From: Paenibacillus tianmuensis
GTDB taxonomy: Bacteria; Bacillota; Bacilli; Paenibacillales; NBRC-103111
Direction: 5' to 3'
Length of the DNA: 64,000 bases
Assembly (NCBI RefSeq): GCF_900100345.1
Contig: NZ_FMTT01000023.1
Span: 1-64,000 of the forward strand
Below, in pieces: positions 11,671 through 62,482 of this stretch (position 1 is its first letter; every line of letters starts with the position of its first letter). Under the pieces are notes generated by a model. That model had not been told where the DNA came from. It saw nothing but the letters and a program-made list of their open reading frames with translations, and made no database searches. Position numbers and translations under genes: made by a program.

Positions 11671-14192
11671 TACTTATGAACGTTTACGGCCCGACAGAGA
11701 ATACGACGTTCTCAACAGCGCATCGGATCGAAGGCGAGCAGACCGGACCGGTGCCGATCGGCCGTCCGATCAGCCGTTCCACGGCTTACGTGACGGCCGA
11801 TTCAATGAAGTTGCTCCCAATCGGAGCATGGGGAGAACTGCTCGTCGGCGGAGAGGGTGTGGCGCGCGGGTATTTGAATCGGCCGGATCTGACAGCGGAG
11901 AAGTTTATCGAAAGCCCTTTTCGCCCGGAAGAGCGCTGCTTCAGGACGGGCGATTTGGCCCGCTGGCGGGCAGACGGCACGCTGGAATACAAAGGCCGGA
12001 TCGACGGGCAGGTGAAAATTCGCGGATACCGGATCGAACTGGGTGAGATCGAGGCACAGCTTGCAAAAGTGGAGATGGTCCGGGAGGTTGTTGTGATCGC
12101 CAAGGAGGATAGCGGGCAGAAGCTGTTATGCGCCTACTTTGTGGCGGACCGGACTTTCACAGCAAGCGAGGTGCGAAGTGCTCTAGAGCAAAAACTGCCC
12201 GGCTACATGATTCCGTCCTACTTCGTGCAACTGGAGCAATTTCCGCTCACCGTCAACGGCAAAGTGGACCGCAAAGCGCTGCCGGTTCCGGAAGAAAGCC
12301 TGCAGAACGGAGCAGAACAAGCCATGCCCGCGACGGAGCTGGAGGCCAAGCTGGCGAAGATTTGGCAAGTGGTATTAGGTGTTCCAAGCCTCGGTGTCCT
12401 GGACAGCTTCTTTGACCTCGGCGGGCATTCTCTCAAAGCGCTGGTGTTGATGTCGGGAATGGAACAGGCAGGTTGTAGTGTTACCTTAACGGATATTTTT
12501 CACTATAAATCGATCCGAGCGCTCGCCGCTTACCTTCAATCGGCGAAGGAGCAGGAAGGCCTTATCGAAGCGAAAGAAGCTCTCGTTTCCTGGCTGCACC
12601 GGGGAACGGAGGGCGTGTATGAACTGGTCTCGTATCAAGTTAGAGATGTGTTCGAAGAAACGAAAAATATTAACGTTCTATACAGCGACGATGTGGAAAA
12701 GGATCACGTCGAAAGACTCGTTCAGACGATGAACGGAAAGGTCGCCAAAAATCTGCTGCCACACTATATTGTACCTCTGCATCGAAGGATTGAAGTGGAT
12801 CCGAACGAAACGATCGATGAAGAAGTTTTTTGTCGGCGTCTCGGTTTAAACGAAATAGAACCAGATGAGGCAGCAACCATTCGCGTGCGGCTTCAAGATG
12901 ATTACCGTCAAACGGATCGGTGGATCAAAACGGGGGATGTGACGCAGGAATATCCGTTTGGGGCGATACAACAGATGCAAATCAAGTTCCAAACGCCTCC
13001 TAGCGTCGTTTTCTTCAAGCTGGACGAGTACGTGGATTATACGCTACTGGACCAGTCCTACGCTCAACTCGTGCAGCGCCAAGGTTTGCTGAGAAGCGTT
13101 TCCGTCCAAGGGGAGCCATGCGTTTGCTGGAAAGAATACGCCTTTCCTTCCTCTCGTCCGCCGAAGCTTTACCTGCTCGACGTATCGGGCTGCAATCCTT
13201 GCGGTCCGTTTATGGACATGCTGCAGGATTTCATTCACAACACCCGGTACGACGGGGAACGCATCTTGTATCAAATGATTCTGTTAAAACGAAATTTGCG
13301 CGAGCATTATGTGATCGGACTTTTGCATCATGCTCTTTGCGACCGGGTGACAACCGAAGTCGTCGAGCGGCAGATGGTCTCTTGCTACAGAAGTCTTCTG
13401 CTAAATCAAGCTCCGCCTTCTGACGAAGTGAAGCCTTTTCTTGAGTATGTCAAGCAAATTCAAAGCGGCCCGCAAGGCATCACCGAGCAAGAATTGATTT
13501 CGGCCTTTGAACTGGAGGCATTTCACCGGAGCAAGCAGGATATTTTGCGTCGGCTGGAGCATCGAACGAGTGACGAAGCCTTCTTGTTCAACGTTTCTAT
13601 TCCGGCCAAAGAACATTCTTTGGGGCGTGCGCTTTCCGTTTATACCAAGGGCCTGCAGGCCTACTTGGAGACGGATCATTTTCCCTTGCTGTTCTTATAC
13701 GACGGACGAAGATATGAAGAAGCGTCATACTACAATACGGTCGGCGAATTTATTGATTTCGTGCCTCTCTTCATTGATGCGGGGTGGAATCAGGATAAAA
13801 CATTGCGCTCCGTCAGAACCCGGCTGGATCTTTTGAAGGATAAAAACCTTAATTTTATGCATCTGCTCACCGATCCTGCTTGTCGTTACGACTGGTCCGG
13901 AACCAAGAGGTTCGTACAGTTTGGGGAACAGTATGAGCATCTTGATCTGTTCATGTTTAATTATTTGGGCAATAGCGTCAAGGGAAATTTGCGGGAAAGC
14001 TACGACGATACCGTCGTGAAACAGCCAAATCCGCTGCCGATCCATTCGCTGTTTAACTGTATCGCAACATCTTACGCCGACGGGTTCATTTTCTCCCTTC
14101 GCTGTAGCTACAAGATTGACGTTGGGGAAGTCAGGATGGCTTTTCACAAGGTAGCATGTGCAGAGGGGATGAATAATATAACCGCCCCTTAA
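11592..14192 (+). CDS. NRPS A3 C-terminal part, carrier T3 and terminal condensation-like domain
   Basis: Continuation of A3 (NVYGPTENTTFS, LLVGGEGVARGYL, FRTGDLARW, NGKVDRKALP), then carrier T3 (FFDLGGHSLKAL, Ser near 12430), a linker of about 130 residues with no recognised domain, and a C-terminal condensation-like domain of about 400 residues. Combining both A3 pieces, the specificity positions read DAFFLGVTF(K), isoleucine-like. The terminal domain has HHALCDR (13326-13346) where C domains have HHxxxDG: the histidines and aspartate are kept but the glycine is replaced. No thioesterase or reductase follows, so release may rely on this domain or on a distant enzyme. The stop codon lies in the loop of a terminator. 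Confidence 0.88.
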   Translation: MQTLLVGGETLSVPQINLVLRDNPGLVLMNVYGPTENTTFSTAHRIEGEQTGPVPIGRPISRSTAYVTADSMKLLPIGAWGELLVGGEGVARGYLNRPDLTAEKFIESPFRPEERCFRTGDLARWRADGTLEYKGRIDGQVKIRGYRIELGEIEAQLAKVEMVREVVVIAKEDSGQKLLCAYFVADRTFTASEVRSALEQKLPGYMIPSYFVQLEQFPLTVNGKVDRKALPVPEESLQNGAEQAMPATELEAKLAKIWQVVLGVPSLGVLDSFFDLGGHSLKALVLMSGMEQAGCSVTLTDIFHYKSIRALAAYLQSAKEQEGLIEAKEALVSWLHRGTEGVYELVSYQVRDVFEETKNINVLYSDDVEKDHVERLVQTMNGKVAKNLLPHYIVPLHRRIEVDPNETIDEEVFCRRLGLNEIEPDEAATIRVRLQDDYRQTDRWIKTGDVTQEYPFGAIQQMQIKFQTPPSVVFFKLDEYVDYTLLDQSYAQLVQRQGLLRSVSVQGEPCVCWKEYAFPSSRPPKLYLLDVSGCNPCGPFMDMLQDFIHNTRYDGERILYQMILLKRNLREHYVIGLLHHALCDRVTTEVVERQMVSCYRSLLLNQAPPSDEVKPFLEYVKQIQSGPQGITEQELISAFELEAFHRSKQDILRRLEHRTSDEAFLFNVSIPAKEHSLGRALSVYTKGLQAYLETDHFPLLFLYDGRRYEEASYYNTVGEFIDFVPLFIDAGWNQDKTLRSVRTRLDLLKDKNLNFMHLLTDPACRYDWSGTKRFVQFGEQYEHLDLFMFNYLGNSVKGNLRESYDDTVVKQPNPLPIHSLFNCIATSYADGFIFSLRCSYKIDVGEVRMAFHKVACAEGMNNITAP

Positions 14193-24800: not shown

Positions 24801-24890
24801 GGCTATTTGCATGTGGATGGTTATCCCCGTTATCATAAAGTGACAGGGGTCACGCTGGTGGGATGCTGGGCGCATGCGCGGCGCAAATGA
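24801..24890 (+). pseudogene. IS66-family TnpC transposase remnant
   Basis: Thirty codons read GYLHVDGYPRYHKV ... LVGCWAHARRK before a TGA at 24888-24890. This is the highly conserved catalytic-region stretch of IS66 transposases (GYLxxDGYxGYxK and xGCWAHARRKF). Everything else of the element is gone. It lies just before the beta-lactamase-like gene, so that gene may have been moved or joined by this IS. Confidence 0.75.
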
Positions 24891-24904
24891 GGAGGAAAAT
24901 ACCA

Positions 24905-25537
24905 ATGAACAATCGGGAATGGTCGCAATCGTTTGAAAAGTATATGAGAAAGACAATGGAAGCTGTTCCGCTCGCAGGGGCGTCCGTCGGCCTAGCCAAG
25001 GATGGGGAGCTTGCTTATCATCAGGGGTTTGGATACCGGGATATAGAGGAGAAAGCTGAAATTACGCCAGATACTATTTTTGGAATTGGTTCGGTGACGA
25101 AGTCGTTTACGTGCGTGGCGCTTATGCAGTTACAGGAAGCTGGAAAGCTATCGGTTCACGAACCAGCGGTAAACTATTTACCTGAATTTCGACTGAAGGA
25201 TGGTCAAAGTGTGGAAAATATCACGATCCACCATTTTATGACACACACATCGGGGATACCTGCGTCGCCTTCTTTAGGATACGCAATGAAACGCACGATG
25301 CTGGGTGATCCTGCTGTTGATGAACTGGATTACGATATTGAACAACATGAGCCGATTGATACATATGAAGAACTGATGGATTATATCGCCTCGTTGGATT
25401 TTGAATTGCTGGGGCCACCTGGTTCTCTCCCCGACTATAACAACGACTGTTATGCCTTGTTAGGTGCCATCATTGAGCGGGTGAGTGGTATATCATATGA
25501 ACAATATGTGATTAAGAGCATATCCTGGTGCCCGTAG
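24905..25537 (+). CDS. Serine hydrolase (beta-lactamase/PBP4*-like), N-terminal part, frameshifted
   Basis: N-terminal part of a penicillin-recognising serine hydrolase of the class C beta-lactamase/ClbP/EstB type. The nucleophile motif SxxK is SVTK (GIGSVTKSFTC) and YxN is in LPDYNNDCYALLG. No signal peptide, so likely cytoplasmic. ATGAGGAGGAAAATACCA precedes the ATG at 24905. Around 25519-25523 one base appears to be missing: the frame leaves VIKSI and runs to a stop, while the next frame continues LVPVGMTRS. Beyond that point the last residues are not authentic. Together with the next entry it would make a protein of about 480 residues. Confidence 0.85.
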   Translation: MNNREWSQSFEKYMRKTMEAVPLAGASVGLAKDGELAYHQGFGYRDIEEKAEITPDTIFGIGSVTKSFTCVALMQLQEAGKLSVHEPAVNYLPEFRLKDGQSVENITIHHFMTHTSGIPASPSLGYAMKRTMLGDPAVDELDYDIEQHEPIDTYEELMDYIASLDFELLGPPGSLPDYNNDCYALLGAIIERVSGISYEQYVIKSISWCP

Positions 25538-26352
25538 GAATGACACGCAGCGTATTTACTCCTAAGGAGGTAGCCGAGTTTACGAACGTCTCTATAAATT
25601 ACGCCAACAGAATGACCAATGGAACAAGCGAGGTGTATGCTGCCCCCATCTGGTGGGATGCACCAGCTATGCGTGCGGCAGGATTCCTCAAGTCAACAAT
25701 CCGGGATATGCTACGCTACACGGAGATATTTCGAACAGGTGGAATGGTAGGGGAACAGCGGATCTTGTCTGCCGCCAGTGTAGACCAGATGGTGAAGCCG
25801 CACGTTAGAGTAACTGCGAATTCCTTTTACGGATATGGGCTGGAGATTCATCCTGACTATCACGGCTTATCATTAGTAGAGCATTCGGGTGGTTTGAAGA
25901 GTATTTCAGCTGAGATGTTCATAGCGAAAGAAACAGGGTTGACAGGGATGATACTAAACAATACGGGCAATGCTCCTTCTTCGGAAATGTTGTCCCGGTT
26001 GGTGTGCAGTATCCAATCCTTGCCTATTGAAACGCCTCTTTACACCTACGATGATTATGATGTCACTGCCGATCGTCTGCCTGATTATGCAGGGAAATAT
26101 ATGGCGTTCGCTGGTATGGGTGGTGTGTCGGTTGCACAGGAAAACGGCAACCTGGTTGTAAGTATCATGGATGGCGAGCCTCTTCCGATGAGAGCCATTG
26201 CTAGAGATCATTTTTTGACAATACTTGAAGGCTCGGAAACGGAGGTGCGATTTTTCCGAGATTCGGAAGGACATGTGAATGCAGTTAGCGTAGGTGGATT
26301 ATTTACAGTGAGGAAGTGGAAGGGAGCCCGTGCTGAACAGGGACAATTTTAG
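25528..26352 (+). CDS. Serine hydrolase, C-terminal part after frameshift
   Basis: Continues the preceding hydrolase one frame over. It begins meaningfully at LVPVGMTRSVF and includes VEHSGGLKSIS, the HSGG equivalent of the KTG motif, completing the three active-site motifs. The C-terminal 120 residues form the strand-rich extra domain often found in PBP4*-like proteins. Without the N-terminal SxxK half this fragment cannot be active. A single-base deletion, real or an assembly error, separates the two. Confidence 0.82.
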   Translation: MPVGMTRSVFTPKEVAEFTNVSINYANRMTNGTSEVYAAPIWWDAPAMRAAGFLKSTIRDMLRYTEIFRTGGMVGEQRILSAASVDQMVKPHVRVTANSFYGYGLEIHPDYHGLSLVEHSGGLKSISAEMFIAKETGLTGMILNNTGNAPSSEMLSRLVCSIQSLPIETPLYTYDDYDVTADRLPDYAGKYMAFAGMGGVSVAQENGNLVVSIMDGEPLPMRAIARDHFLTILEGSETEVRFFRDSEGHVNAVSVGGLFTVRKWKGARAEQGQF

Positions 26353-29221: not shown

Positions 29222-31195
29222 ATGAAACTTAACGACCATACGATTCTGTGGAATTATGCTACCATACGGATTATGGATGTGCGGCATACGAGTCTAGAGC
29301 AAGGAGAAGTGCTGAGCTCCTACCAGCTGCCGGCCAGCGCTTTCCTTTATGTAACCCGAGGGAGCGGGCGCATTCGGCTGGACGGCGCTGAGAGCGAGGT
29401 GAAGCCTTTCCAGTTAATGCATGGGGGCAAAGGGCTTTGCCTCGATTTGATGGCTGAAGAGCTGCTGAACTATTACTTGATTCTGTACAAAGCCGCAATG
29501 CCGCTGACGAGCCGTCGGGAGCTGCTTGCGTTATGGGAAGCAGTTGATAACCCGTTCCAGCTGCAGTTCAGCTTCACTCCTCACGATCCGATCGCCATGT
29601 TGGACAAGGCGCAGGCGATGTATAAGGCATGGGAACGGACGGATGAACTGGAGAAGCTGCATGTGAAATCGCTCTTCTACCAATTCGTTCACGAACTGCT
29701 GCAGCAGCTGGCAAGTCAGTCAGTGCAAGCGCAGAGACCGGACCCTGTTGCCCAGGCGATCCGCTATATTCATGAGCACTACAAGGAGCCGATCACGCTC
29801 GAATCGCTTGCGGACATGCTCGATTGCAATCCGCGACAGTTCCTGAGAATGTTCAGAAACAGCTGGCAGACGAGTCCGATCGATTATTTGATACAAGTCC
29901 GCATGGACAAAGCGAAGGAGCTGCTCCTGAACACGGAGTGCACAATGAAGCAAATTTCCGAGAGCGTCGGCTACTCGGACAGCTACTACTTCAGCCGCAT
30001 GTTCAAGAAGTGTACGGGCGTATCCCCGACAGCTTTCAAAGAGACTGCCCAGGCCGCGAGCTCAAGTCGAAATAATCCATCTGCGGTGTCCACATATCCC
30101 ATTGCTGCGATATGGCTTCAACGATATAGTGATCATGATAATCATTATCACTATATCGGGAAGGGAGATTTACCCGTGCTTAGAAGGACTAGAGCATCAT
30201 TCGCCGCCTCCTTGCTGTTTTGCATGATTTTGCTGTTAAGTAGTTGTACGGCGGGAACGATCAGTACAGATCCGGGCGCTGCCGGCGCTGCCAAAAACGG
30301 CGCGACGGCGACCGCTCCGGCGGGAGCGGGCAGTACGGAAGCGGACTCGCCAAGGATCATCAAACATGCGATGGGGGAAGAAACCGTCAAAGGGACGCCG
30401 AAGCGCGTGGTCATCCTGACGAACGAAGGAACGGAAGCGCTGTTGGCCGTAGGCGTCAAGCCGATCGGTGCGGTGCAATCGTGGATTGGTAACCCATGGT
30501 ACGATCATATTAAGAATGAGATGAATGATGTCGCCGTCGTGGGCGACGAGCTGCAGCCGAATATCGAGCTGATCGCGAGTTTGAAGCCAGATCTCATTAT
30601 CGGCAATAAGGCGAGACAGGAGAAAATATACGGCCAGCTGAAGCAAATTGCACCTACCGTATTCGCGGAAGATTTGGGCGGTGACTGGAAAATTAATTTC
30701 AAGTTGTACATGGACGCGATCAACAAGAAGGAAGAAGGGGAGAAGGCGATGACTGCGTTTGACATGCGGGTTGCCGACGTGAAGGCCAAGCTTGGCAGCA
30801 AGGCGGCTACGAAAGTGTCCGTCGCCCGCTTCTCCGCCTCACAGGTGCGCATCTACCAGAAGCAGACGTTCTCCGGTGTTCTCTTGAGCCAGCTTGGATT
30901 CGCCCGTCCCGCTTCACAGGACAAAGATTCGTTCATCGAGGTGATGTCCAAGGAGACAATTCCGAGCATGGATGGGGACGTGCTGTTCTACTTCGTCACG
31001 AAGACGGCGGGCAAAACCGATGCTGCAAAACTCGTGCAAGAATGGATAAACGACCCGCTGTTTAAAAATTTGAATGTAGCCAAGACGAACAAAGTCGTGC
31101 AGGTCGACGAAGCGATCTGGAACTCAGCGGGAGGGTATAAGGCGGCCAACCTACTTCTGGACGAGCTTGTCAAATATTTCGATATAAAAAAATAG
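29222..31195 (+). CDS. AraC-type regulator fused to an iron-siderophore-binding protein
   Basis: One uninterrupted frame of 657 residues. Residues 1-165 form an AraC sensor-like cupin region, and about 175-280 is the two-helix-turn-helix AraC domain (LESLADMLDCNPRQFLRMF, ISESVGYSDSYYFSRMF). From residue 319 it reads as a complete lipoprotein: signal segment SFAASLLFCMILLLSSC and then an FhuD/FecB-type substrate-binding domain (GTPKRVVILTNEGTEALLAV, LKPDLIIGNKARQEKIYGQL). The link between them (codons about 300-318) is what an intergenic region would encode: it contains a Fur box and a ribosome binding site. AraC-binding-protein fusions are known (Btr of Bacillus subtilis). If made full length, the segment near 325-345 would span the membrane, putting the sensor outside. 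Alternatively the lipoprotein is also started internally at GTG 30176. Confidence 0.88.
   Translation: MKLNDHTILWNYATIRIMDVRHTSLEQGEVLSSYQLPASAFLYVTRGSGRIRLDGAESEVKPFQLMHGGKGLCLDLMAEELLNYYLILYKAAMPLTSRRELLALWEAVDNPFQLQFSFTPHDPIAMLDKAQAMYKAWERTDELEKLHVKSLFYQFVHELLQQLASQSVQAQRPDPVAQAIRYIHEHYKEPITLESLADMLDCNPRQFLRMFRNSWQTSPIDYLIQVRMDKAKELLLNTECTMKQISESVGYSDSYYFSRMFKKCTGVSPTAFKETAQAASSSRNNPSAVSTYPIAAIWLQRYSDHDNHYHYIGKGDLPVLRRTRASFAASLLFCMILLLSSCTAGTISTDPGAAGAAKNGATATAPAGAGSTEADSPRIIKHAMGEETVKGTPKRVVILTNEGTEALLAVGVKPIGAVQSWIGNPWYDHIKNEMNDVAVVGDELQPNIELIASLKPDLIIGNKARQEKIYGQLKQIAPTVFAEDLGGDWKINFKLYMDAINKKEEGEKAMTAFDMRVADVKAKLGSKAATKVSVARFSASQVRIYQKQTFSGVLLSQLGFARPASQDKDSFIEVMSKETIPSMDGDVLFYFVTKTAGKTDAAKLVQEWINDPLFKNLNVAKTNKVVQVDEAIWNSAGGYKAANLLLDELVKYFDIKK
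30131..30149. promoter_or_regulatory. Fur box inside the AraC/binding-protein frame
   Basis: GATCATGATAATCATTATC matches 18 of 19 positions of the classical Fur box GATAATGATAATCATTATC. It is also framed by perfect 11-bp arms GATATAGTGAT (30123-30133) and ATCACTATATC (30147-30157). It lies 27 bases before a well-spaced internal start with ribosome binding site, as expected for an iron-repressed gene. Confidence 0.8.
30176..31195 (+). CDS. Possible internally initiated siderophore-binding lipoprotein (same frame as the fusion)
   Basis: AAGGGAG at 30161-30167 is 8 bases before GTG 30176, which is in frame with the upstream AraC gene. Starting here gives 339 residues with an N-terminal RR, a hydrophobic stretch and the lipobox LSSC, a standard lipoprotein signal peptide. 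The iron-siderophore-binding domain follows, and the Fur box lies just upstream. The product would bind ferric siderophore outside the membrane for an ABC importer encoded elsewhere. This entry describes an alternative product, not an additional locus. Confidence 0.55.
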   Translation: MLRRTRASFAASLLFCMILLLSSCTAGTISTDPGAAGAAKNGATATAPAGAGSTEADSPRIIKHAMGEETVKGTPKRVVILTNEGTEALLAVGVKPIGAVQSWIGNPWYDHIKNEMNDVAVVGDELQPNIELIASLKPDLIIGNKARQEKIYGQLKQIAPTVFAEDLGGDWKINFKLYMDAINKKEEGEKAMTAFDMRVADVKAKLGSKAATKVSVARFSASQVRIYQKQTFSGVLLSQLGFARPASQDKDSFIEVMSKETIPSMDGDVLFYFVTKTAGKTDAAKLVQEWINDPLFKNLNVAKTNKVVQVDEAIWNSAGGYKAANLLLDELVKYFDIKK

Positions 31196-42005: not shown

Positions 42006-42441
42006 TATCCCCTTTCCCGCCTTTTCGGATTGTCTGGCAAGCGACGAAGAAGAGAATCCCCGTTATCGCGAATGCGATCATGCGGCTGCTTCCCCAAAAT
42101 GCATAACCGGTGTCGCTCATGAAATAAAAAGGCCCGAGCAAGTCCCTCAATGCTAATTGCGCCGCCCATACCGCCAGCGACAAACCGGCTCCAATCCGCG
42201 GCCCAAAAAGGACGATGGCGGCAAATGCCAGCGCGGTGCAAAAGCATAAAGGCGCCAACCAACCGATGATAAATGCGAACAACGGACCGGTCTGACCGGT
42301 CAGCGATAAGAGGACGCTTGCCGTCAAAGCCAGTACCATATCATACAGAACGATGATGCCCAGCCTTCCCATCATCATCTCGACCGGAGAGACCGGGAAA
42401 GTCGCCTCCAGCTTGGACATCGGCGTGCCATACGATCTCAA
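41983..42441 (-). CDS. Short ABC-type membrane protein, possibly N-terminally truncated
   Basis: Hydrophobic protein with about four to five membrane segments (LGIIVLYDMVLALTASVLLS, FAFIIGWLAPLCFCTALAFA, MIAFAITGILFFVACQTIRK). The frame opens at TTG 42441 overlapping the previous stop; ATG 42420 (MSKLEATFPV) is the first methionine. The phrase LEATFPVSPVEMMMGRLGI usually lies in the cytoplasmic part of a longer permease or anti-sigma-like membrane protein, so an N-terminal domain seems missing. It would work with the neighbouring ATPases. Confidence 0.65.
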   Translation of the reverse strand: MRSYGTPMSKLEATFPVSPVEMMMGRLGIIVLYDMVLALTASVLLSLTGQTGPLFAFIIGWLAPLCFCTALAFAAIVLFGPRIGAGLSLAVWAAQLALRDLLGPFYFMSDTGYAFWGSSRMIAFAITGILFFVACQTIRKGGKGDNGRYDPA

Positions 42442-43490
42442 CGTTTTCCTTCATAACGGCGCGCGTACTCGTATATTTGCCGGATCGCCTCGGGAAAATG
42501 CGCTTTCCTGAACGCTTCATACACTTTGTTCATCGCCAAGTAAACCGGGTGCGGCACACCGTTCCATTTATGCATGCTCGGGATAAACAAAGGTTCGCCC
42601 TGCCCGTTACCGTTATGCCTGATCGATTGCGATATCGCTTCCGTCATATATCCGGCCAGTTTAGATAAGGAGACGGACATAATGTTTGCATCAAGAACCG
42701 TTGCCCGCAAAAGATCCTCGTCGAAATAAGACAAGCCGTTAAAGGTCATCGAAGCAGGATGGTTCGGGTAAGACAAATAGTAGAAGCCATTGCTATCGAT
42801 CGGTTTAAGAAATTCACCTTTGATCGGTGGCGATCTGTATAGCAACTGGTTGTTGAACGATTCGTTTTGCACCCGGCCCGGATAATCCGCGCGGATGAAA
42901 TGTATGCGACTCGGATAAAAAGCATCCGGATTGAGCATCTTCGCTATTTGGGATAGCTCCGCATAATGTGCAAGCAGGTTGCCGGCAATGCTCTTCGCCC
43001 GGGACGGAGGAATCTGATTCGATAAAACGATCGAAACCGTCGATTGGTGATTCGATTCCCTCCACTCGGTCATATTCCCACCAATGAGGTTGAAACCGCG
43101 AACGCCCGACGCATCGAATACGACACGCTGTCTCCCATCCGCCGCTTGGGAATTCTTCCGCTCCCCGTTCGCGATAAGCTGCATCCGTCCGCCCGCTTCA
43201 ACCTCCACATGAAATTCGGCAGGCAGCCGGTAAGGCTCGCTTTCTCTAACGGCTTCATCCACAACGGGACTTGACAGTCTTTCGTCGAAACGTACTTGCT
43301 CCAATTCGGCCAGCCTGTCGGTTCCCGGGTAAGGGTACCATCCGTAATATCCCGGCAGGAACAGCTTATCCGAATCGACAAACACTCTTCGCTCCCAATG
43401 GGCATCAAGGGAATCGTCGATTCCTCCAGATCCTTGCGGATCATACCAATCGTTGATCGTACCTGCATATTCCATCGTCGTCTCCACCAC
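42438..43490 (-). CDS. M1-peptidase-like extracellular domain of the ABC permease (frameshifted 3' part)
   Basis: This frame is the direct continuation of the permease gene at 43070-44746, one base out of phase from about 43497. It reads MEYAGTINDWYDPQGSGGID, WERRVFVDSDKLFLPGYYGW and YPYPGTDRL, the pattern of the beta-sandwich and catalytic-like domain of aminopeptidase-N-fused permeases. The HExxH zinc motif of active M1 peptidases is not present in the readable part, so it is likely a non-catalytic relative. The original protein would have spanned 42438-44746. Confidence 0.75.
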   Translation of the reverse strand: MVETTMEYAGTINDWYDPQGSGGIDDSLDAHWERRVFVDSDKLFLPGYYGWYPYPGTDRLAELEQVRFDERLSSPVVDEAVRESEPYRLPAEFHVEVEAGGRMQLIANGERKNSQAADGRQRVVFDASGVRGFNLIGGNMTEWRESNHQSTVSIVLSNQIPPSRAKSIAGNLLAHYAELSQIAKMLNPDAFYPSRIHFIRADYPGRVQNESFNNQLLYRSPPIKGEFLKPIDSNGFYYLSYPNHPASMTFNGLSYFDEDLLRATVLDANIMSVSLSKLAGYMTEAISQSIRHNGNGQGEPLFIPSMHKWNGVPHPVYLAMNKVYEAFRKAHFPEAIRQIYEYARRYEGKR

Positions 43491-44746
43491 CGTTCGAGGC
43501 TGAACGGGCCGAGCCGGGACAACCCATACGACATCCTCTTCGGGCTCCCACTCGAAGGCTGCGGCATCCCTTCGACCTTTACTTCATGGATTTGGAAATG
43601 ATGCCGGAGCGACAGCGGAAAGCGGTCAATTGCCTCCTGGCCTCCATGGTGCAATTGGATCGCGCTCTGCACTTCCATGAGGTGCTTTTCCCCGATATTC
43701 ACCTTCAAATCGTATTTGAGTGCCGTCAGCATGGCGTACTTCCGGCCCAGAAGGAGCATGTTCTTATGCTGCTGCGTCAGTGGATTCACGCTCGGGTCCG
43801 CTTCTTCACCTGCCAGAAACCGTTCGACAGCAATTCGATTGATCTCCGAAGGATTTTCCTGAAACAGCTTTCTGTAAAATGCGAAATTCCCTTTGGACGA
43901 TTCGGTACGCTCCTTCCATATGGACGCATAGCCGAGGACGCTCATAACCATTGTGACGACGGCTGCGGCGGCAATCGGGTACAAGACGGTATTCCGACTC
44001 TTTTCCTTTCTTCCCCTCTTCGCGCTGTACACGATTCCTCCGAATAAGAGGACGATCAGCGCGGTATGGAACAAACGGAGAAGCCCGTATGCCGTAGCGT
44101 CCGTAAAGCCCCATAATTCCGAATAAAAGCCCAACCGGGTTAAGTCGGTTAATCCAATATCGGCCAAATAGGTCCACTGGGCCGGCATCCATTCGAGAAA
44201 AATAACATTGGCCAAAAACAAAACAGCCGCGACAATCGCCAAGCTGTACAAATAAACGATGCGGTTGCGGGTCCAAGTGCCGATCCAATAACCGAGCAAG
44301 ATCGTAAAGGTCGTCGGAATGACGAATGAGCCGAGCATAAATAATCCTGCTGACATAGAGGAAAACGTCATTCCCGCACGCAAAGCATGATAGGCGTAAA
44401 AGCACGCGGGCAGCAGGGAGAGCGCGCCCAGCGGAATAATCAAGGCGAGTAGTCTGGCCGCAATCAATTGTACGGAACGATAGGGCAAAGCGTCTTGTAT
44501 CGGACGAATCTTCACTGCGGTATCTCTTCGCGCAGCCGATACAGCCAAAAATGGTGCCATCATAAACATAAACCACATGAACTTGTAGGAACTCGATAGG
44601 GTATACCACCCGATATCATCCGCATACGCGTTATTGATCAGGGAGATTGCCCAAGCCCCGCCTGTTACGGCCAGCAGGATCAAACCGAACCATCCCCGGA
44701 ACATAAGTTTCCATTCGACGACGACATATTTCCAAATAGCAATCAT
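43070..44746 (-). CDS. ABC transporter permease with fused peptidase-like domain (5' part, frameshifted)
   Basis: Membrane protein starting MIAIWKYVVVEWKLMFRGWF with about seven to eight membrane helices in the first 260 residues (FGLILLAVTGGAWAISLIN, LLALIIPLGALSLLPACFYA, YLYSLAIVAAVLFLANVIFL), then an extracellular part. Authentic sequence ends near 43497 at GPFSLERW; a one-base deletion there moves the remaining domain into the frame of the 42438-43490 entry. The start overlaps the upstream ATPase stop (ATGA). Broken genes on both sides suggest the whole operon is decaying. Confidence 0.8.
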   Translation of the reverse strand: MIAIWKYVVVEWKLMFRGWFGLILLAVTGGAWAISLINNAYADDIGWYTLSSSYKFMWFMFMMAPFLAVSAARRDTAVKIRPIQDALPYRSVQLIAARLLALIIPLGALSLLPACFYAYHALRAGMTFSSMSAGLFMLGSFVIPTTFTILLGYWIGTWTRNRIVYLYSLAIVAAVLFLANVIFLEWMPAQWTYLADIGLTDLTRLGFYSELWGFTDATAYGLLRLFHTALIVLLFGGIVYSAKRGRKEKSRNTVLYPIAAAAVVTMVMSVLGYASIWKERTESSKGNFAFYRKLFQENPSEINRIAVERFLAGEEADPSVNPLTQQHKNMLLLGRKYAMLTALKYDLKVNIGEKHLMEVQSAIQLHHGGQEAIDRFPLSLRHHFQIHEVKVEGMPQPSSGSPKRMSYGLSRLGPFSLERWWRRRWNMQVRSTIGMIRKDLEESTIPLMPIGSEECLSIRISCSCRDITDGTLTREPTGWPNWSKYVSTKDCQVPLWMKPLEKASLTGCLPNFMWRLKRADGCSLSRTGSGRIPKRRMGDSVSYSMRRAFAVSTSLVGI

Positions 44747-56790: not shown

Positions 56791-57540
56791 TTAGGGAGCG
56801 AGAAACCGCTCCAAGATGTCGTCGATGCGGCCGGCTTCGATCGTCTCTTTGGCTTTAGTCGGGCCGTCGACTACGGTCAAGGAATGATCGAACAGCGTCA
56901 TCCGGCCTGCCTCCGTCACTTTCATCAAAAAATAAACTTTGTTGAACGGCGATTCCGGGGCGTATTGCGTCTCGTTGCACACCTCGGCAAAATCCTCGAG
57001 CTGCTTCGGTTCCAGATCAAACCTGTACAGGATGGTCCAGTCCCGCTCCTCCTTCTTTTCCAAAATATATCCGTTCCGCAGCTCAGGATACGCTCTGATC
57101 CGATAGAAACCGTCCGCGTCCTGAATCTCCTCCCCGGTTATGGGCACCGGACGGCGCGGGGAGTTGCCGCCAAAGCCGACGTCAACCAAATATAGACGCC
57201 CCTCCAAACGAACGAGATTGGTGGCATGCGAGCCTTCCGTCCCCCATTGGCTTTCCCCCCGATAGACGGTTGCGGCAATCATATGGGTCTCGAACCCAAT
57301 CCGGCGCAGCAGCTCGCAGAACAATCCGTTTAACTCGTAGCAGACGCCTCCCCTGCGCTGGTTTACCAGTTTATCGAAGAGGTCGCCGGTCCGAAGCGCG
57401 ATCGGAATGCCGCGCAGAATATCTAAATTTTCAAAAGGAACCCGGGTCACATGCCGCTTTTGCAGCAGCGTCAAGCCTTCCAAGGTCTGTTGAACAGGCT
57501 CTGCTACTTCGATGCGCTGCAAGTAAAGACGCGTATCCAT
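56791..57540 (-). CDS. nat: Arylamine N-acetyltransferase
   Basis: 249 residues, the usual NAT length. Catalytic triad is visible: Cys in QRRGGVCYELNGLFCELLRR, His in GSHATNLVRLEG and Asp in LVDVGFGGNSP. RVPFENLDIL at the N-terminal helical part is the conserved PFENL motif. The enzyme acetylates aromatic amines and hydrazines by a ping-pong mechanism with acetyl-CoA; relatives close macrolactams in ansamycin pathways. ATG 57538-57540 is about 10 bases after GGGGG; ATG 57546 is also possible. A terminator separates it from the upstream biosynthetic-like operon, so it is probably independent. Confidence 0.92.
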   Translation of the reverse strand: MDTRLYLQRIEVAEPVQQTLEGLTLLQKRHVTRVPFENLDILRGIPIALRTGDLFDKLVNQRRGGVCYELNGLFCELLRRIGFETHMIAATVYRGESQWGTEGSHATNLVRLEGRLYLVDVGFGGNSPRRPVPITGEEIQDADGFYRIRAYPELRNGYILEKKEERDWTILYRFDLEPKQLEDFAEVCNETQYAPESPFNKVYFLMKVTEAGRMTLFDHSLTVVDGPTKAKETIEAGRIDDILERFLAP

Positions 57541-57692
57541 GTTCATTTTCCCCCATTTCTTATTTTTGGAATCCATGCTGCGGCGCCGAGGCACACGCAG
57601 GCAGTATCGTGTCGCAGATCGTTTCGATCTAGTATATGTCGAAGCGGCGATCGGTTCAACCACAATAATGCGGCTCCAAACCGCGGTGCATG

Positions 57693-57730: not shown

Positions 57731-58789
57731 CTATGTTCCTACCGGCTGTCCCGATTCCACGCGCTTTAACAGCCGCTCCAGCAGTGCCGGCTCTCTTTCC
57801 TTAAACGCCTCCAGCTTGGCGGGCATCTTCGCGAAAATCCGCTCATCGCCCTTCGTTTCCGCGATAGCCAGCTGATCGCGCAGCAGCTTCGCCTTGTTCG
57901 CGAGCTCTTCAAACGACTGATGCAGTTCCTCGTCCTGTTCGATGATGCCGTGCCGCGTGAAGTACCGGATTCGGTCCGCCATCACCTTTTTGTGCTCCCA
58001 GAGCAAATGCAGATGCCTTACGCCGTTGGGCGACACCAACGAAGGATGCCGCTCCGCTGCGGCTCTGAAGTACATTTGGAGATACTCGTATGTCGCCAGA
58101 CCGAACACTTCGCCATCCGGGTTATAATTGATCCGGTTCAAATGAGTCTCGCTGTTCAAATAATCACGCAACTGATCCGCGACCGCCACCGGATCAAACG
58201 CAAAGGGATGCTCCCCGTTGAACCGGTAAAAAAACGTATGGTGATCCGCCGTAAGCCCGCTTTCGATAAGCCGCCTCATCGATTCGCAGGCGCTTATGAA
58301 TTCCTCGAACGGAATTTTGAGGGTCCGGTACACCAGATTGCCATCGAACATCGAGACGTCGAACGTTCGTTCCTTTAGATCGTATCCGGAGAGCATCAGA
58401 TGATGGGGAAAGGCGTCGCCCCCATAGGCGGGGCCGATCGTAATTTTCGATTCGTCGATGAAGACGATCGCATAATAGCCTTGGCGAATGCGCCCGACCA
58501 TAAACTCGACAAGCTCATCCGGCCGAAAACCGGACAGCAGTTCATAATTGACCGCGCAGGTCAAAAGAAACGGATTGTTGAAATTCAGCTCGTTCGGCTT
58601 GCCCCGGAAAAAATCGAAAAAAAACTGCTGCCGTTTCTCCAGAAAGTGCTTCGTGCACGACATTTGGATGAAATTGGTATAGTACCAAGGCAGCGTCTCC
58701 TCGTAATTGTGCGTAATCGATAACGTATACGCCCAACGCAAGAAGCCTTTGATCGGCGGCGGCTGCAGCGGCAATTGATACCGACTCAT
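57731..58789 (-). CDS. Papain-like / BtrH-N-like protein of a biosynthetic operon
   Basis: 352-residue soluble protein. The central block has the order of a papain-like fold: Cys in FLLTCAVNYELLSGFRPDEL, a helix and strand (IRQGYYAIVFIDESKITIGP), His in GGDAFPHHLMLSGYDLKERT, and a strand FDVSMFDGNLVYRTLKI. This C-then-H order with a GYDxxxxxFxVxxxDG segment resembles the BtrH N-terminal/C39-like family found in natural-product loci; BtrH in butirosin synthesis moves an ACP-bound acyl group onto the aminoglycoside. The C-terminal 130 residues are helical. It is the last gene of the operon, 57 bases after the ABC ATPase. The family call is by eye and uncertain. Confidence 0.55.
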   Translation of the reverse strand: MSRYQLPLQPPPIKGFLRWAYTLSITHNYEETLPWYYTNFIQMSCTKHFLEKRQQFFFDFFRGKPNELNFNNPFLLTCAVNYELLSGFRPDELVEFMVGRIRQGYYAIVFIDESKITIGPAYGGDAFPHHLMLSGYDLKERTFDVSMFDGNLVYRTLKIPFEEFISACESMRRLIESGLTADHHTFFYRFNGEHPFAFDPVAVADQLRDYLNSETHLNRINYNPDGEVFGLATYEYLQMYFRAAAERHPSLVSPNGVRHLHLLWEHKKVMADRIRYFTRHGIIEQDEELHQSFEELANKAKLLRDQLAIAETKGDERIFAKMPAKLEAFKEREPALLERLLKRVESGQPVGT

Positions 58790-58846
58790 AACATAAACTC
58801 CCCCCTTGCCCTCCTCAAGTAGATGCGGTTGTTTTCGCTTGCGGGG

Positions 58847-59833
58847 TTATCCGGTGGCTGCTTCTTTGCCGTACAGCTTGGCAATGCTCTCTTCAAGCGG
58901 GAGGTCCGCCACCGTGAAATCGACGACCGGAAACCGGTCAAGCAGCATCCGGGATACCGGCTTCAACTGCTCCTTCGGCAGCTCGATTACCGCGTGATAC
59001 GAGTCGCGCTTCGTGACGCAGCCGAGCGATCTCAGACTTTCTTCCGGCACCGGCTCAGAAAACTGAACGTTCAGCACCTTGACTTCGTTGAACAGCTCGT
59101 TGATTTTCTTGAAATCGCCGTCGTACAAGATACGGCCTTCGTTAATGACAATCGTACGCTTGCAGACGTCCTCGATATCCTTCATATAATGGCTGGTCAA
59201 AATCAAGGTTGCCTTGAATTGCTCGTTGTAATAGGTCAGAAACTCCCGGATCTTCTTCTGCGAGATCAGATCGAGGCCGATCGTCGGCTCGTCCAGAAAC
59301 AATAATTTGGGACTGTGGATGAGCGCCGCGATCAGCTCCATCTTCATCCGTTCGCCAAGCGACAGCCGCCGGACCTGCACGTGCAGCAAATGCTTCACAT
59401 CCAGCATCTCCGACAGCTCGGCAAGCATCCGCTCGTAGGCGTCATCCGGAATCTGGTAAATGCATTTGTTCAGGTAGATCGACTCGATGGCGGGCAAATC
59501 GACCCACAGCTGATTTTTTTGCCCCATAACGAGCGAGAAGATGCGCTTGAATTCGTTTTTGCGCTCCCAAGGCGTATGCCCGAATACCGAGGCTTCCCCG
59601 CTGGTCGGATGAAGAATCCCGGAAAGCATCTTCAGCGTCGTCGTCTTCCCGGCGCCGTTCGGCCCGATGAAGCCGACGCATTCCCCGGAAGCGATCTCGA
59701 ACGAAATGGACTTGACCGCCTCCTTCGTCAACGTTTTGCGGGAAAACAAATTTTTCAAGGAATGCCGGAGCCCCGCTTCCTTCGTATAATAATCGTAGGC
59801 TTTGTGCAGTCCGCTCACCCAGATCCGTTCCAT
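58847..59833 (-). CDS. ABC transporter ATP-binding protein (export type)
   Basis: 328 residues: long N-terminal lead (LHKAYDYYTKEAGLRHSLKN, LFSRKTLTKEAVKSISFEIA) typical of ABC ATPases that work with ABC-2-type exporters. Walker A is GPNGAGKTT, the Q-loop is SLVMGQKNQLW, the signature is LSLGERMKMELI, Walker B is LLFLDEPTIGL and the H-loop is ILTSHYMKDIE. A C-terminal domain of about 85 residues follows. No permease gene is adjacent, so the membrane partner must be elsewhere. AGGAGGACGCC precedes ATG 59831-59833. Placed 25 bases after the glycosyltransferase gene. Confidence 0.9.
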   Translation of the reverse strand: MERIWVSGLHKAYDYYTKEAGLRHSLKNLFSRKTLTKEAVKSISFEIASGECVGFIGPNGAGKTTTLKMLSGILHPTSGEASVFGHTPWERKNEFKRIFSLVMGQKNQLWVDLPAIESIYLNKCIYQIPDDAYERMLAELSEMLDVKHLLHVQVRRLSLGERMKMELIAALIHSPKLLFLDEPTIGLDLISQKKIREFLTYYNEQFKATLILTSHYMKDIEDVCKRTIVINEGRILYDGDFKKINELFNEVKVLNVQFSEPVPEESLRSLGCVTKRDSYHAVIELPKEQLKPVSRMLLDRFPVVDFTVADLPLEESIAKLYGKEAATG

Positions 59834-59858
59834 GGCGTCCTCCTGATCGTATAATGGG

Positions 59859-60965
59859 TTAGACGTAACGCTCGTTTGGAGCCGTATCCCATTCCCTTCC
59901 GTAGTGGCAGGCTGTGCTGCGCTGCTTTCGCAGCCGTTCGTGGCAGGACTGCAAAGACGCGGCCGGAAATCCGGCCTCCTCCCAATCGTCATAGTCGATG
60001 CCGAATCCGCACCGCTTCCAAAAGGCGGCATTGCTTTCCTCGTGATTTCCGAACGGCTCCAGCAGCAGCAGCGGCGTGGCGTACACCAGCGAATCGTTCA
60101 AGGTAGCGCCTCCCGGCTTGCTGATAATCGCCCGGCTTAAGCGAACGAGCTCCAAATAGGATGCGTAGTCCGGCAGCCTGCGCCGCTCGATCGTCCCCTG
60201 CCGCCTCACGAGCTCCAGCATCGGGGGATAGGTGTATGCTCCCCCCGTATCCCTGATCCACGGACTCCACTCGGAATCCACCATAAAATAGCGGGTTTCC
60301 CCGTCGTCCTCCTGCACTTCGCTCTCGTCATACGCAATGATATCCAGCCGGCAGCCGCCGCGCCGCAGCCGCTCGATTTTGTCCCGATAGGTGCCGATCC
60401 CCCAGCCGCCGCCATGAATAAGAAATCGGTCGTTCCGTTCCTCAAAGGACGCGGCATCGGCGTCCGGCGGCGCGATCCAAAAACCGGGGCTTCCGAGCCC
60501 GGGATCGTAAAACTGCACATTGCGATACGCTTGGTAGGAAGACTTATAAACCTTATACGAAGGGGTGTCGCAAGCATCCATATGAATCCATTCGATATGG
60601 ACGGGAAAGCCTGCAACCTCCTTGTAGGCTTCCAAAATAGGCAGCCAAAACCCCGTAAATGCGATAAACGTCGCGCAGCCCGTTTGCTGCCAATGCGCGT
60701 GCAGCCCGCGGACCGCCGAATCATCGAGATTCGGACTGATGTCCTTGGCCATCCGATGCCCGGTCAAGGCGACGGAAAAATTGTTGTGAAACGCTTTTTT
60801 ATACCCATTGATTTTGCTGCGGATCTCCTCGAGATAGAGCGTTTCAAGCACCCGCACTTCCGCCCGGATATGTTGGCGCGCAAGGGTTTCCCGAAGATGT
60901 ATCGCAGGAATATAGGCGCCAAGCGAATTACCTGAGGCCAACAGCGTGATTGCGTCCTTGGTCAT
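59859..60965 (-). CDS. GT-B-fold glycosyltransferase-like protein
   Basis: 368 residues. The C-terminal half has the nucleotide-sugar-binding pattern of MurG/UGT-type GT-B enzymes: SRAIISKPGGATLNDSLVYA, then PLLLLEPFGNHEESNAAFWK with the conserved acidic/asparagine residues, and RCGFGIDYDDWE. The N-terminal half starts ITLLASGNSLGAYIPAIHLR, the GxxLGxxxPAxxL entry loop of this fold. No signal peptide or transmembrane helix. It lies between the ATP-grasp gene (21-base gap) and the ABC ATPase gene (25 bases) in one operon, so it likely glycosylates the operon's product. Confidence 0.7.
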   Translation of the reverse strand: MTKDAITLLASGNSLGAYIPAIHLRETLARQHIRAEVRVLETLYLEEIRSKINGYKKAFHNNFSVALTGHRMAKDISPNLDDSAVRGLHAHWQQTGCATFIAFTGFWLPILEAYKEVAGFPVHIEWIHMDACDTPSYKVYKSSYQAYRNVQFYDPGLGSPGFWIAPPDADAASFEERNDRFLIHGGGWGIGTYRDKIERLRRGGCRLDIIAYDESEVQEDDGETRYFMVDSEWSPWIRDTGGAYTYPPMLELVRRQGTIERRRLPDYASYLELVRLSRAIISKPGGATLNDSLVYATPLLLLEPFGNHEESNAAFWKRCGFGIDYDDWEEAGFPAASLQSCHERLRKQRSTACHYGREWDTAPNERYV

Positions 60966-60986
60966 GGACAGCCCCCTGTCCTTCCG

Positions 60987-62357
60987 TTAATGGAATACTG
61001 TCACCGAGAGGTCATGCAGCACTTGCTTCAGCCGCTCCAACGCCACTTCCCGGGTCTCCTCCGTCTGTCCGATCACCGACACGTACAACCGGCCTTTCGG
61101 CTTCGCCGAAGACCGCCCGCCCGGGCCACCATTTACGGTTAGCGTACCGGAGGATAGCGGCATGATGCCGCTTGACCGCAGCGGGGTAAACAACAGCTGC
61201 TCATCCTCCAGCGCTTGAAGCAGCCGATCGAAGCGGAAGCCATCCGGCAGAGCGACGGACAGATAGGTAAGCCAGCCCTTGAGACTCCAGCCTGCAAGCA
61301 GCCGGTCCAGATGCGCATTGATGAGCCCCATCGACATCCGGGCGTTCACCTCGACGATGGGGACAAGCTCTCCGCCCTCCAGCACCATCGAGTCGAAGCA
61401 AACGTATCCGAAATAGCCGTCGAGATGCAGTTCGCGCAGCGCCACCTCAAGCATCCGGAAGTACCCTTTTTGTTCGAGGGAGTTCACAAAGGCGGCTTCC
61501 GCCGTGACGGAGCCGCCATAATTTTGCTGGCGGTTTATCATGCGCTGCACCGAAATCAGCTCTCGGGAGCCGTCCGACTCAAGCAGCCATTGACTGGAGA
61601 AGTCGGCTGCTTTGGGCAACAGCGGTTCGAGCAAAAAGAGCGTCTGGGAGCCGGCTTCTTCTTGCTTCCGCAAGTACGAAACGATCCGTTTCAGCAGCGA
61701 CGGGCTTTCGATCAGCAAATTGCCTTTGCCCGATACGCCGAACAGGTCCTTGATCAGAAAAGCGCCTTTAAGCAGCAGCTCGGTGCCGTATTGCTCCACT
61801 TCCTCCGCACTCATAGCCGGCGTACCGTAAGCGTGCAGTCCCGTATCCTCCAGCAGCCGATGGTGATACAGCTTGGAGTTCACGCGCTTCACTACAGCCA
61901 AATCCGGAAGAGGGTTGGCGAAAACTACCTTTCCCGCATACTCTTGCGCCTCTTCGGTTACCGCGTACGGAGCAAGCACATACGGCTTGTCCGCATTGAA
62001 GCTGGGGATTCCGTCTTGGGGAGCGAGCTTAAAGATACACGACGCGAAATCCTGCGAGCGCAGCGCTTCTTCGGCTTCCGGCGAAGTCAAGTCCACGACG
62101 CTGTGGTGGTGAAACGAAACGCCCAGCCTGGCGAAATAATCCAGCAGCACTTCGTCGATCCCGCAGCGACTATACAATATATCGTTAGGTCCGCACAGCG
62201 GAAAAAGCAGTTCATCCATACAAAGAACGATCCGGTCCCTTTCCGGGTCGGGAATTCGGGGCAGCATCGACAGCAAAGGATCTCTCCAACGCGTTTCCGG
62301 GTCAAATGTGCCCATGACCGTTTTGCGCACAGCGACGGCAGATTTACTCGACAGCAT
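60987..62357 (-). CDS. ATP-grasp ligase-like protein
   Basis: 456 residues with an ATP-grasp core: central lysines in AFLIKDLFGVSGKGNLLIES, the strand TLFLLEPLLPKAADFSSQWL, the glycine-rich start of the metal site in YFGYVCFDSMVLEGGELVPI, and the metal-binding VEVNARMSMGL (usually E-x-N-x-R). Such enzymes join a carboxylate to an amine or thiol through an acyl-phosphate. It is the second gene of the operon, its ATG 2 bases after the stop of the carrier-like short ORF. This pair recalls BtrI (carrier protein) and BtrJ (ATP-grasp) in butirosin side-chain synthesis. Substrate unknown. Confidence 0.75.
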   Translation of the reverse strand: MLSSKSAVAVRKTVMGTFDPETRWRDPLLSMLPRIPDPERDRIVLCMDELLFPLCGPNDILYSRCGIDEVLLDYFARLGVSFHHHSVVDLTSPEAEEALRSQDFASCIFKLAPQDGIPSFNADKPYVLAPYAVTEEAQEYAGKVVFANPLPDLAVVKRVNSKLYHHRLLEDTGLHAYGTPAMSAEEVEQYGTELLLKGAFLIKDLFGVSGKGNLLIESPSLLKRIVSYLRKQEEAGSQTLFLLEPLLPKAADFSSQWLLESDGSRELISVQRMINRQQNYGGSVTAEAAFVNSLEQKGYFRMLEVALRELHLDGYFGYVCFDSMVLEGGELVPIVEVNARMSMGLINAHLDRLLAGWSLKGWLTYLSVALPDGFRFDRLLQALEDEQLLFTPLRSSGIMPLSSGTLTVNGGPGGRSSAKPKGRLYVSVIGQTEETREVALERLKQVLHDLSVTVFH

Positions 62358-62359
62358 GA

Positions 62360-62482
62360 TTAAGTGCCCATGGAACGAAGACGAAAATCGTTGTTCAAAT
62401 CCGTTTCGAGCGTAAGCCTTTCCCGCAGCGGCGGGTTGTCCTCCTTAATTTGGCGCAAAATTTGGACGATCGTAGTAAACAC
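62360..62482 (-). CDS. Short ORF resembling the first half of an acyl/peptidyl carrier protein
   Basis: GTG 62480-62482 with GAGGAGGG at 62490-62497 opens a 40-codon frame reading FTTIVQILRQIKEDNPPLRE, then RLTLETDLNNDFRLRSMGT, to TAA 62360-62362. Helix I, the 'LTxETDLxxDFxLxSM' loop and the start of helix II match acyl carrier proteins, with a serine at the phosphopantetheine position, though the preceding Asp is replaced by Arg. Carrier proteins normally have about 80 residues; helices II-IV are missing. Either it is a truncated carrier or an unusual short partner of the ATP-grasp enzyme encoded 2 bases later. An alternative ATG at 62484 in another frame gives a basic 32-residue peptide. 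Confidence 0.45.
   Translation of the reverse strand: MFTTIVQILRQIKEDNPPLRERLTLETDLNNDFRLRSMGT

Follow-up and report, generated by a model that had tools for sequence, protein, structure and literature searches.

Does a run of five genes in Paenibacillus tianmuensis encode a complete biosynthetic pathway, and to which known system is it closest? The genes lie in a stretch of 64,000 nucleotides (contig NZ_FMTT01000023.1, positions 1 to 64,000; hereafter the window), in which the list of open reading frames (ORFs) places five co-directional members between positions 62482 and 57731 of the minus strand, separated by gaps of 2, 21, 25, and 57 bases. A preliminary description made from the sequence had given the same coordinates and spacing and had read the genes as a butirosin-like operon of a carrier-protein-like peptide, an ATP-grasp ligase, a GT-B glycosyltransferase, an ABC exporter ATPase, and a papain-like/BtrH-N-like protein. 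We favor, with moderate confidence, the interpretation that the window holds one half of a carrier-dependent pathway for an exported glycosylated aminoacyl metabolite and that the other half lies on C28, another contig of the same genome (G000; L-numbers and G-numbers denote the loci and genomes compared).

Organization of the operon in relatives and at a second locus

A search for related loci with the 352-residue product of the last gene as query found it matched in 75 of 197 genomes; from the surroundings of the matches listed, 40 stretches were fetched. Among these matches, near orthologues of the five-gene block occur in nine other genomes of the genus, where the 352-residue protein is 89 to 96% identical and the ABC ATPase 95 to 98% identical. 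Conserved gene neighborhood, named in the preliminary description as support for its reading, was found in all nine, one of them with a degenerate carrier gene, and the conserved order argues that the grouping is beyond chance. Loci with a less similar homologue of the 352-residue protein (50–55% identity; L040–L051, families assigned from L043) have additional genes: a radical S-adenosylmethionine (SAM) enzyme gene stands between the glycosyltransferase and ABC genes and two permease genes follow the ABC gene in 12 of 12, while a zinc dehydrogenase and a GH3 gene precede the BtrH-like gene in 7 of 12. The carrier or ligase gene lies beyond the fetched end in L047 to L051.

The breadth of this arrangement was assessed by a profile scan of GTDB genomes, in which the best 80 of 120 relatives yielded 79 loci, the set to which all counts out of 79 refer. 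These loci belong to Paenibacillus (71), Cohnella (1), Clostridium (3), and metagenome-assembled genomes of Bacillota (2), Margulisbacteria (1), and Chlorobiaceae (1). The usual order in relatives is acyl carrier protein (ACP), ATP-grasp ligase, glycosyltransferase, radical SAM/SPASM enzyme, ABC ATPase, and two permeases, often with a BtrH-like gene last. The glycosyltransferase gene directly follows the ligase gene in 78 of 79 loci; ABC and radical SAM genes were each called in 69, permease 1 in 60, and permease 2 in 59, and the ligase, glycosyltransferase, radical SAM, ABC, and both permease genes occur together in 59 of 79. Less regular members are the BtrH-like gene (47/79), a GFO/IDH oxidoreductase (21/79), a second radical SAM enzyme (20/79), GH3 (13/79), and zinc dehydrogenase (13/79), and accessory genes for methyltransferases, nucleotide-sugar enzymes, and an AMP ligase vary among loci. 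Because calls were BLAST-based with set thresholds, a gene scored as absent may lie beyond a contig end or have been lost to greedy ORF choice; some genes of L080, L081, and L087 were masked by antisense ORFs. Two loci have, at the operon end in the place of the BtrH-like gene, a protein of 370 to 376 residues with a TTDCWHF motif and no Pfam match (L084:11671-12801 and L184:13121-14233).

Ten of the 79 loci have no radical SAM gene; nine of these are the window clade (L120–L128) and the tenth (L181) is a 3.2-kb contig. A search of the genus genomes with the permease and radical SAM protein of relatives located the genes that the window clade lacks at a second locus, matched on C28 of the window genome at 48% and 60% identity, respectively. 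The gene order on C28 is permease 1, permease 2, radical SAM 2, GFO/IDH/MocA oxidoreductase, a 91-residue carrier, radical SAM 1, and a KAS-III-like protein. Both radical SAM enzymes carry SPASM domains, and the permeases are 48 to 52% identical to PF06182 proteins of one relative. The ATPase and permease pair of an ABC-2 exporter are thereby both present, the former in the window and the latter on C28, noncontiguous and with a putative pairing. The KAS-III-like protein matches PF08541 and ChlB3 in the PDB (1e-5), has one Cys conserved in six of six aligned sequences, and is by similarity an alternative candidate acyltransferase to the BtrH-like protein.

All seven C28 genes are present in each of the 10 genomes with a window-type locus, spread over two contigs in one, and the motif of the C28-type carrier is intact in 10 of 10. 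Judged by the matches listed for 25 genomes of the genus, those with near orthologues of one locus and those with near orthologues of the other are the same 10; G006, G012, G013, and G016 instead have one compact cluster, and the remaining 11 gave no close match to either locus. The two loci are truly apart in G024, where the first is on a different contig and the second has more than 100 kb of its own contig on each side. The clade without a radical SAM gene at its first locus carries radical SAM and permease genes at a second. By sequence comparison, the window operon would be half of a pathway whose remainder is on C28, divided in this way in the Paenibacillus ehimensis/elgii/tyrfis group.

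A decayed carrier gene in the window

The first ORF had been described as a carrier-protein-like peptide, which is accurate for its full-length orthologues and not for the window copy. Eight near orthologues (L032–L039) encode a carrier of 89 to 90 residues with the motif (D/E)(I/V)GLDSLQM. The L032 carrier, the one near orthologue tested, matches PF00550 at 1e-8, and each of two full-length carrier orthologues tested matches the family at about 1e-8. Across the 79 loci a (D/E)S(L/I) carrier motif is found in 78, the exception being L120, which equals the L031 contig in length (54,924) and is taken as the same sequence. In a DNA alignment with seven relatives, the window gene has lost 90 bases spanning the DSL motif and approximately 44 more downstream, which produces an early stop; the downstream loss is seen in the window alone. 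The sister locus L031 (G015, 96%) has the identical 90-base deletion in a separate assembly, plus a different 72-base loss, making assembly error an unlikely source of the 90-base deletion. The gene remnant in the window no longer encodes the phosphopantetheine serine of a butirosin-type carrier, which the C28 carrier retains. We also considered whether the remnant could still function as a “half carrier” and rejected the idea, since its tail has a serine other than the one of the DSL motif.

The stop of the L032 carrier gene overlaps the start of the ligase gene by 14 bases; in the window, 2 bases separate the stop of the remnant from the ligase start. This suggests that translational coupling to the ligase is retained, and the closeness of the remnant's stop to that start may explain its persistence. 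Most simply, the local carrier would have become dispensable since C28 supplies one.

Predicted functions of the ATP-grasp ligase and glycosyltransferase

As a single sequence, the ligase scores below the Pfam cut-offs (PGM1_C, 0.033; CPSase_L_D2, 0.09). As a profile, it bears out the ATP-grasp assignment, matching an ATP-grasp peptide ligase (PDB 8ynd, 4e-17), PGM1 (3wvq, 2e-6), and an L-propargylglycine-glutamate ligase (8yi6, 2e-6); no paper was found under the PDB codes of the best match. The 16-member alignment behind this profile includes four BtrJ-type proteins of relatives, rows that help the PDB scores; one of these that was tested, from L085, exceeds the cut-offs for PreAtp-grasp and PGM1_C. 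Invariant residues, also in this wider alignment, are K203, S209-G210-x-G212, E244, D322, and E336-x-N338-x-R340, which we take to be the ATP- and metal-binding motif positions of ATP-grasp enzymes. Identity to the BtrJ-like proteins of relatives is 23 to 26%, with the motif residues in common and Pfam scores below cut-off. The enzyme is therefore best described as PGM1/BtrJ-like, a likeness from which we predict that it loads an amino acid onto a carrier. The carrier thiol is the likelier acceptor because the carrier and the adjacent glycosyltransferase are each found in 78 of 79 loci.

The assignment of a GT-B glycosyltransferase was weak from the single sequence (NCBIfam 4e-7, 29 bits versus a cut-off of 500) and better founded from a profile, which matched the processive diacylglycerol glucosyltransferase 9wde in the PDB at 5e-8. 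The motifs HGGGWG and SKPGG are invariant in 10 of 10 aligned sequences.

The 352-residue protein as a relative of BtrH

Searched by itself, the 352-residue protein gave no meaningful E-value against any family of Pfam or NCBIfam and had no relative among PDB sequences; it does not reach the Pfam cut-off for BtrH_N, and its own genome is without a PF14399 match at E ≤ 0.001. Its reading as papain-like/BtrH-N-like, which has no direct Pfam match to lean on, draws its support from other members of the family. BtrH_N is matched at 0.057 by the L043 orthologue and at 4e-4 by a member in L174 that has 25% identity and adjoins carrier and AMP ligase genes; the curated PF14399 cut-off is exceeded, over the second half of the domain, by members in G030, G063, and G099. 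In L064:12-3542, a nonribosomal peptide synthetase (NRPS) has a BtrH_N region fused directly behind its peptidyl carrier protein domain (2e-7), and this synthetase also matches the window protein (1e-5). BtrH_N belongs to the papain-like superfamily, near C39 and C70, and BtrH is an ACP:aminoglycoside acyltransferase, according to one article (PMC10318531); an earlier one had included BtrH-family proteins among possible transacylases of ACP-bound groups (PMC2922099).

Of the Cys-His pair that had been anticipated, the His (His129) is invariant in 26 of 26 aligned members. The usual N-terminal Cys is present in three of 26 (L066, L069, and L070) and replaced by Gly in the window protein, the site being placed by eye since the hhalign alignment falls short of it. 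A different Cys (Cys45 of the window protein) is shared by 17 of 26. In three of three BtrH-like proteins, an HC pair, presumed to hold the nucleophile, and a second Cys are invariant; the pair has no equivalent in the window protein, where by eye the Gly takes its place, and Cys45 might correspond to the second Cys. At 16 distant loci of the family, a profile search detected a carrier in the fetched stretch of 10; six of the 16 had seeded the profile and match by construction, four of the remaining 10 match, and a reversed-sequence control gave 0 of 16. We concluded from these comparisons that the 352-residue protein is a BtrH-superfamily relative, and it probably acts at carrier-bound acyl groups, through an altered active site or as a noncatalytic partner.

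Several features of the wider family are recorded here. BtrH_N matches also lie inside ORFs of more than 1000 residues in G030, G037, G048, G052, and G099; among the matches listed, the family of the 352-residue protein is expanded to 8 to 10 matches per genome in G037, G106, G114, and G191; and the 15 BtrH_N proteins of L090 to L104 group tightly and score high (about 142–154 bits).

Gene trees and selection

In six of six gene trees (FastTree, midpoint-rooted), the 10 window-clade members are monophyletic and lie with one large group of clusters (L129–L152, L159, L160, and near relatives). The ligase, glycosyltransferase, and ABC genes of the window locus are sister to this large group with support of 0.83 to 0.97. 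The C28 radical SAM gene joins L193/L197 (0.65), and the C28 permeases join L156/L158/L184/L186 (0.91 and 0.87). In the tree of permease 1, the node linking the window clade to the large group has support of 0.17 and the next node out 0.967.

Ratios of nonsynonymous to synonymous substitution (dN/dS) between the window and sister L031 were 0.156 for the ligase, 0.168 for the glycosyltransferase, 0.119 for the ABC ATPase, and 0.214 for the BtrH-like gene, and 0.197 and 0.115 for the flanking arylamine N-acetyltransferase (NAT) and aldo/keto reductase (AKR). The four intact window genes are under continued constraint despite the shared carrier deletion.

Features of the window

Coordinates are collected in Table 1; the ABC ATPase assignment of the preliminary description was confirmed. 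The ORF list gives this gene as 394 residues (start 60031), overlapping the glycosyltransferase gene, and alignment with orthologues places the start at 59833. Downstream neighbors are NAT (PF00797) and AKR (PF00248), and the upstream neighbor is a divergent PCYCGC protein. Membership of the NAT gene (56791-57546) in the operon was rejected, because L032 has other genes in between and several further relatives have an additional ~1.9 kb there. Scans of the window for tRNA and Rfam families found none, and those for promoters (six promoter-like versus a shuffle mean of 3.0, SD 1.8) and terminators (six terminator-like versus 7.3, SD 3.1) were uninformative.

Table 1. Genes of the five-gene block in the window, in order of transcription
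Feature	Position	Strand	Evidence and remarks
Carrier-gene remnant	62360..62482	-	GTG start, 40 codons; phosphopantetheine segment deleted; stop 2 bases before ATP-grasp start
ATP-grasp ligase, PGM1/BtrJ-like, 456 residues	60987..62357	-	PDB profile matches and invariant motif residues
GT-B glycosyltransferase, 368 residues	59859..60965	-	NCBIfam 4e-7; profile versus PDB 9wde 5e-8
ABC exporter ATPase, 328 residues	58847..59833	-	PF00005 2e-25
BtrH-like protein, 352 residues	57731..58789	-	26-member alignment; other family members match PF14399

Elsewhere in the window, identified by eye, NRPS-like ORFs lie at 1.5 to 14 kb (1553-8854 and 8760-9941, both large, and, on the plus strand, 10828-11670 and 11592-14192), the last two overlapping in different frames and resembling one NRPS protein with a frame change. 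Also by eye, a serine-hydrolase-like gene (24863-25537 and 25528-26352, plus strand) and a membrane-protein gene (42438-43490 and 43070-44746, minus strand) each appear to be spread over two overlapping ORFs, and a 657-residue ORF (29222-31195, plus strand) resembles an AraC-type regulator fused to a siderophore-binding protein.

Discussion

The genes described here constitute a real, conserved biosynthetic system of which half is visible in the window. From the genes themselves, their conserved residues and order, the complementary split, the decay of the carrier, and the constraint on the remaining genes, we infer the following steps. The ATP-grasp ligase, cast as the loader for its likeness to BtrJ and PGM1, would place an amino acid on the phosphopantetheine of a carrier, now that of C28; the carrier thiol is assigned as acceptor because the gene pairing is constant. 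The GT-B enzyme would glycosylate the carrier-bound unit, in the manner of the ACP-dependent MitB in mitomycin, and one or both radical SAM enzymes, with the oxidoreductase, would edit the sugar or the sugar-amino-acid bond. The BtrH-like protein, the KAS-III-like protein, or both may take the acyl unit off the carrier, and the window ATPase with the C28 permeases would export the product.

Among known systems, the butirosin side-chain pathway (BtrI/BtrJ/BtrK/BtrO/BtrH/BtrG) has in common with these loci a stand-alone carrier (in relatives and on C28), an ATP-grasp ligase, and a BtrH-superfamily protein. Butirosin biosynthesis also uses the radical SAM enzyme BtrN and the glycosyltransferase BtrM. 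Unlike butirosin, the system here has the constant succession of ligase and glycosyltransferase genes, an exporter with a permease pair, and a two-locus split, and the BtrH-like protein of the window is without the usual N-terminal Cys. Neither counterparts of BtrK, BtrO, and BtrG nor a decarboxylase, monooxygenase, or cyclotransferase were recognized among the ORFs examined at either locus, the whole genome not having been searched. The PGM1 and ATP-grasp peptide ligases (3wvq, 8ynd, and 8yi6) show profile homology over most of the ligase's length and the conserved motif residues; the differences are that the window ligase falls below the PGM1_C cut-off and that a carrier and a glycosyltransferase accompany it in the loci here. 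For mitomycin, one article (PMC8621148) describes 3-amino-5-hydroxybenzoic acid loaded on a discrete ACP, followed by an ACP-dependent glycosyltransferase, a radical SAM enzyme, and reductases, the early enzymes being MitE, MmcB (ACP), MitB (ACP-dependent glycosyltransferase), MitD (radical SAM), and MitF/MitH (reductases). The set of activities is the same, with an acyl unit on a discrete carrier, and the core here is compatible with that sequence of steps, whereas its loader is an ATP-grasp enzyme rather than the CoA ligase MitE, the radical SAM enzymes have SPASM domains, and a BtrH-like protein and an ABC-2 exporter are added; glycosyl transfer to a carrier-bound acyl group would be, for the present system, an analogy to that account. 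Butirosin thus appears to be the nearest relative by parts and mitomycin the nearest in functional logic, and the system here would be a member of neither.

Several observations weigh against a split pathway of this kind. The 10 genomes in which both loci co-occur are one clade and not 10 independent events, and the window and C28 genes have differing nearest sisters, such that the halves may have separate histories; the split could have arisen by breakage of one ancestral cluster or by two related halves having come together. The dN/dS of the ABC gene exceeds all six other pairs (0.013–0.089), and that of the BtrH-like gene exceeds five of six (0.105–0.163; L031–L033, 0.234), making mild relaxation of both possible. 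The AKR value is likewise above its other pairs (0.046–0.094), so part of the rise may be due to short divergence. An in-frame stop interrupts tblastn alignments of the C28-type oxidoreductase in four of 10 genomes (L080, L089, L200, and L203), possibly through an end effect or because the gene is broken; L089 still has a 339-residue ORF there. For the BtrH-like family, hhalign against three BtrH-like proteins gave an E-value of 0.0042 and a probability of 8%, with the invariant His paired with the BtrH His. No carrier was detected at six of the 16 distant loci, and in L052 and L054 the 19 kb fetched around the BtrH-like gene do not include the core (the contig of L053 is 4.9 kb long). In addition, the proposed substrates, reactions, and product rest on sequence comparison and analogy.

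Other explanations of the same genes were weighed. A cell-envelope system, in which an amino acid is passed from the carrier to a glycolipid or wall polymer destined for export, by Dlt-like logic with an ATP-grasp loader, would account for a glycosyltransferase nearest to processive diacylglycerol glucosyltransferase, for the ABC-2 exporter, and for the GH3 gene in 13 of 79 loci; the patchy distribution of the genes in the genus (10 split and four compact of 25 genomes) and variable accessory genes that resemble those of specialized metabolism (methyltransferases, nucleotide-sugar genes, AMP ligase) make this unlikely. Slightly more doubtful still is a strict butirosin-type side-chain system, with an aminoacyl-ACP made here and transferred to an aminoglycoside-like acceptor made elsewhere. 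The PGM1/BtrJ-like ligase and the BtrH-like relative are as this would predict, as are two clusters of the same genus and, in part, a third. L085 and L086 (Pfam run on the former and on the BtrH_N gene of the latter) add to the core a second carrier of BtrI type and genes for BtrJ, BtrH_N, a pyridoxal phosphate-dependent decarboxylase, and a nucleotidyltransferase, and L087 has a second carrier and BtrJ-like and BtrH-like genes beside the core, with BtrH_N below cut-off; these are the clusters of G006, G012, and G013, and we regard L085, L086, and in part L087 as candidate butirosin-like glycoside clusters. Since the Btr-like set adjoins the core carrier and ligase, the two sets probably do different jobs; the coexistence of the core pair in L085 and L086 with a second, more BtrI/BtrJ-like pair argues that the core has a job of its own. 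The lack of a Cys at the usual N-terminal site, and of any recognized decarboxylase, monooxygenase, or cyclotransferase among the ORFs examined at both loci (the whole genome was not searched), also speaks against an aminoglycoside side chain. The grouping of carrier, ATP-grasp, BtrH-like, glycosyltransferase, and ABC genes in the preliminary description was right in its ancestry, with genes of BtrI, BtrJ, BtrK, and BtrH type and nucleotide-sugar genes in L085 and L086 and part of this set in L087; in the window, the local carrier is broken.

The window copy might instead be a decaying, functionless leftover of a fuller operon, as the broken carrier, the absence of radical SAM and permease genes at the window locus, and the somewhat raised dN/dS of the ABC and BtrH-like genes would suggest. 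We consider this improbable, as dN/dS is still 0.12 to 0.21 between two strains with a common carrier deletion and all 10 genomes carry the missing parts at a second locus. We therefore retain half of a split pathway as our preferred interpretation. An undescribed glycosylated aminoacyl product, as put forward in the preliminary description, remains a fair inference, modified in that the rest of the gene set is at the second locus. No literature description matching the gene set was found, a weak absence given that most subscription papers and bioRxiv were outside the coverage.

Beyond this, we tentatively suggest, short of even odds, that the loci represent a new class of carrier-templated glyco-aminoacyl metabolites, divided over two loci in the P. 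ehimensis/elgii/tyrfis group, in which a C28-type carrier has replaced the decayed local one in two strains. In such a pathway, the unit of sugar and amino acid would be rebuilt by SPASM radical SAM enzymes and then released by a BtrH-like protein that has no Cys at the usual N-terminal site. The concentration of the core (carrier, ATP-grasp, glycosyltransferase, and radical SAM) in Paenibacillus, which accounts for 71 of the 79 loci scanned, together with the lack of a matching description in the literature searched, would imply that a common class of products has been overlooked. With the split and the broken carrier, carrier exchange between loci could be tested in a natural setting, and they carry a warning for cluster-mining tools that a single locus can be half a pathway.

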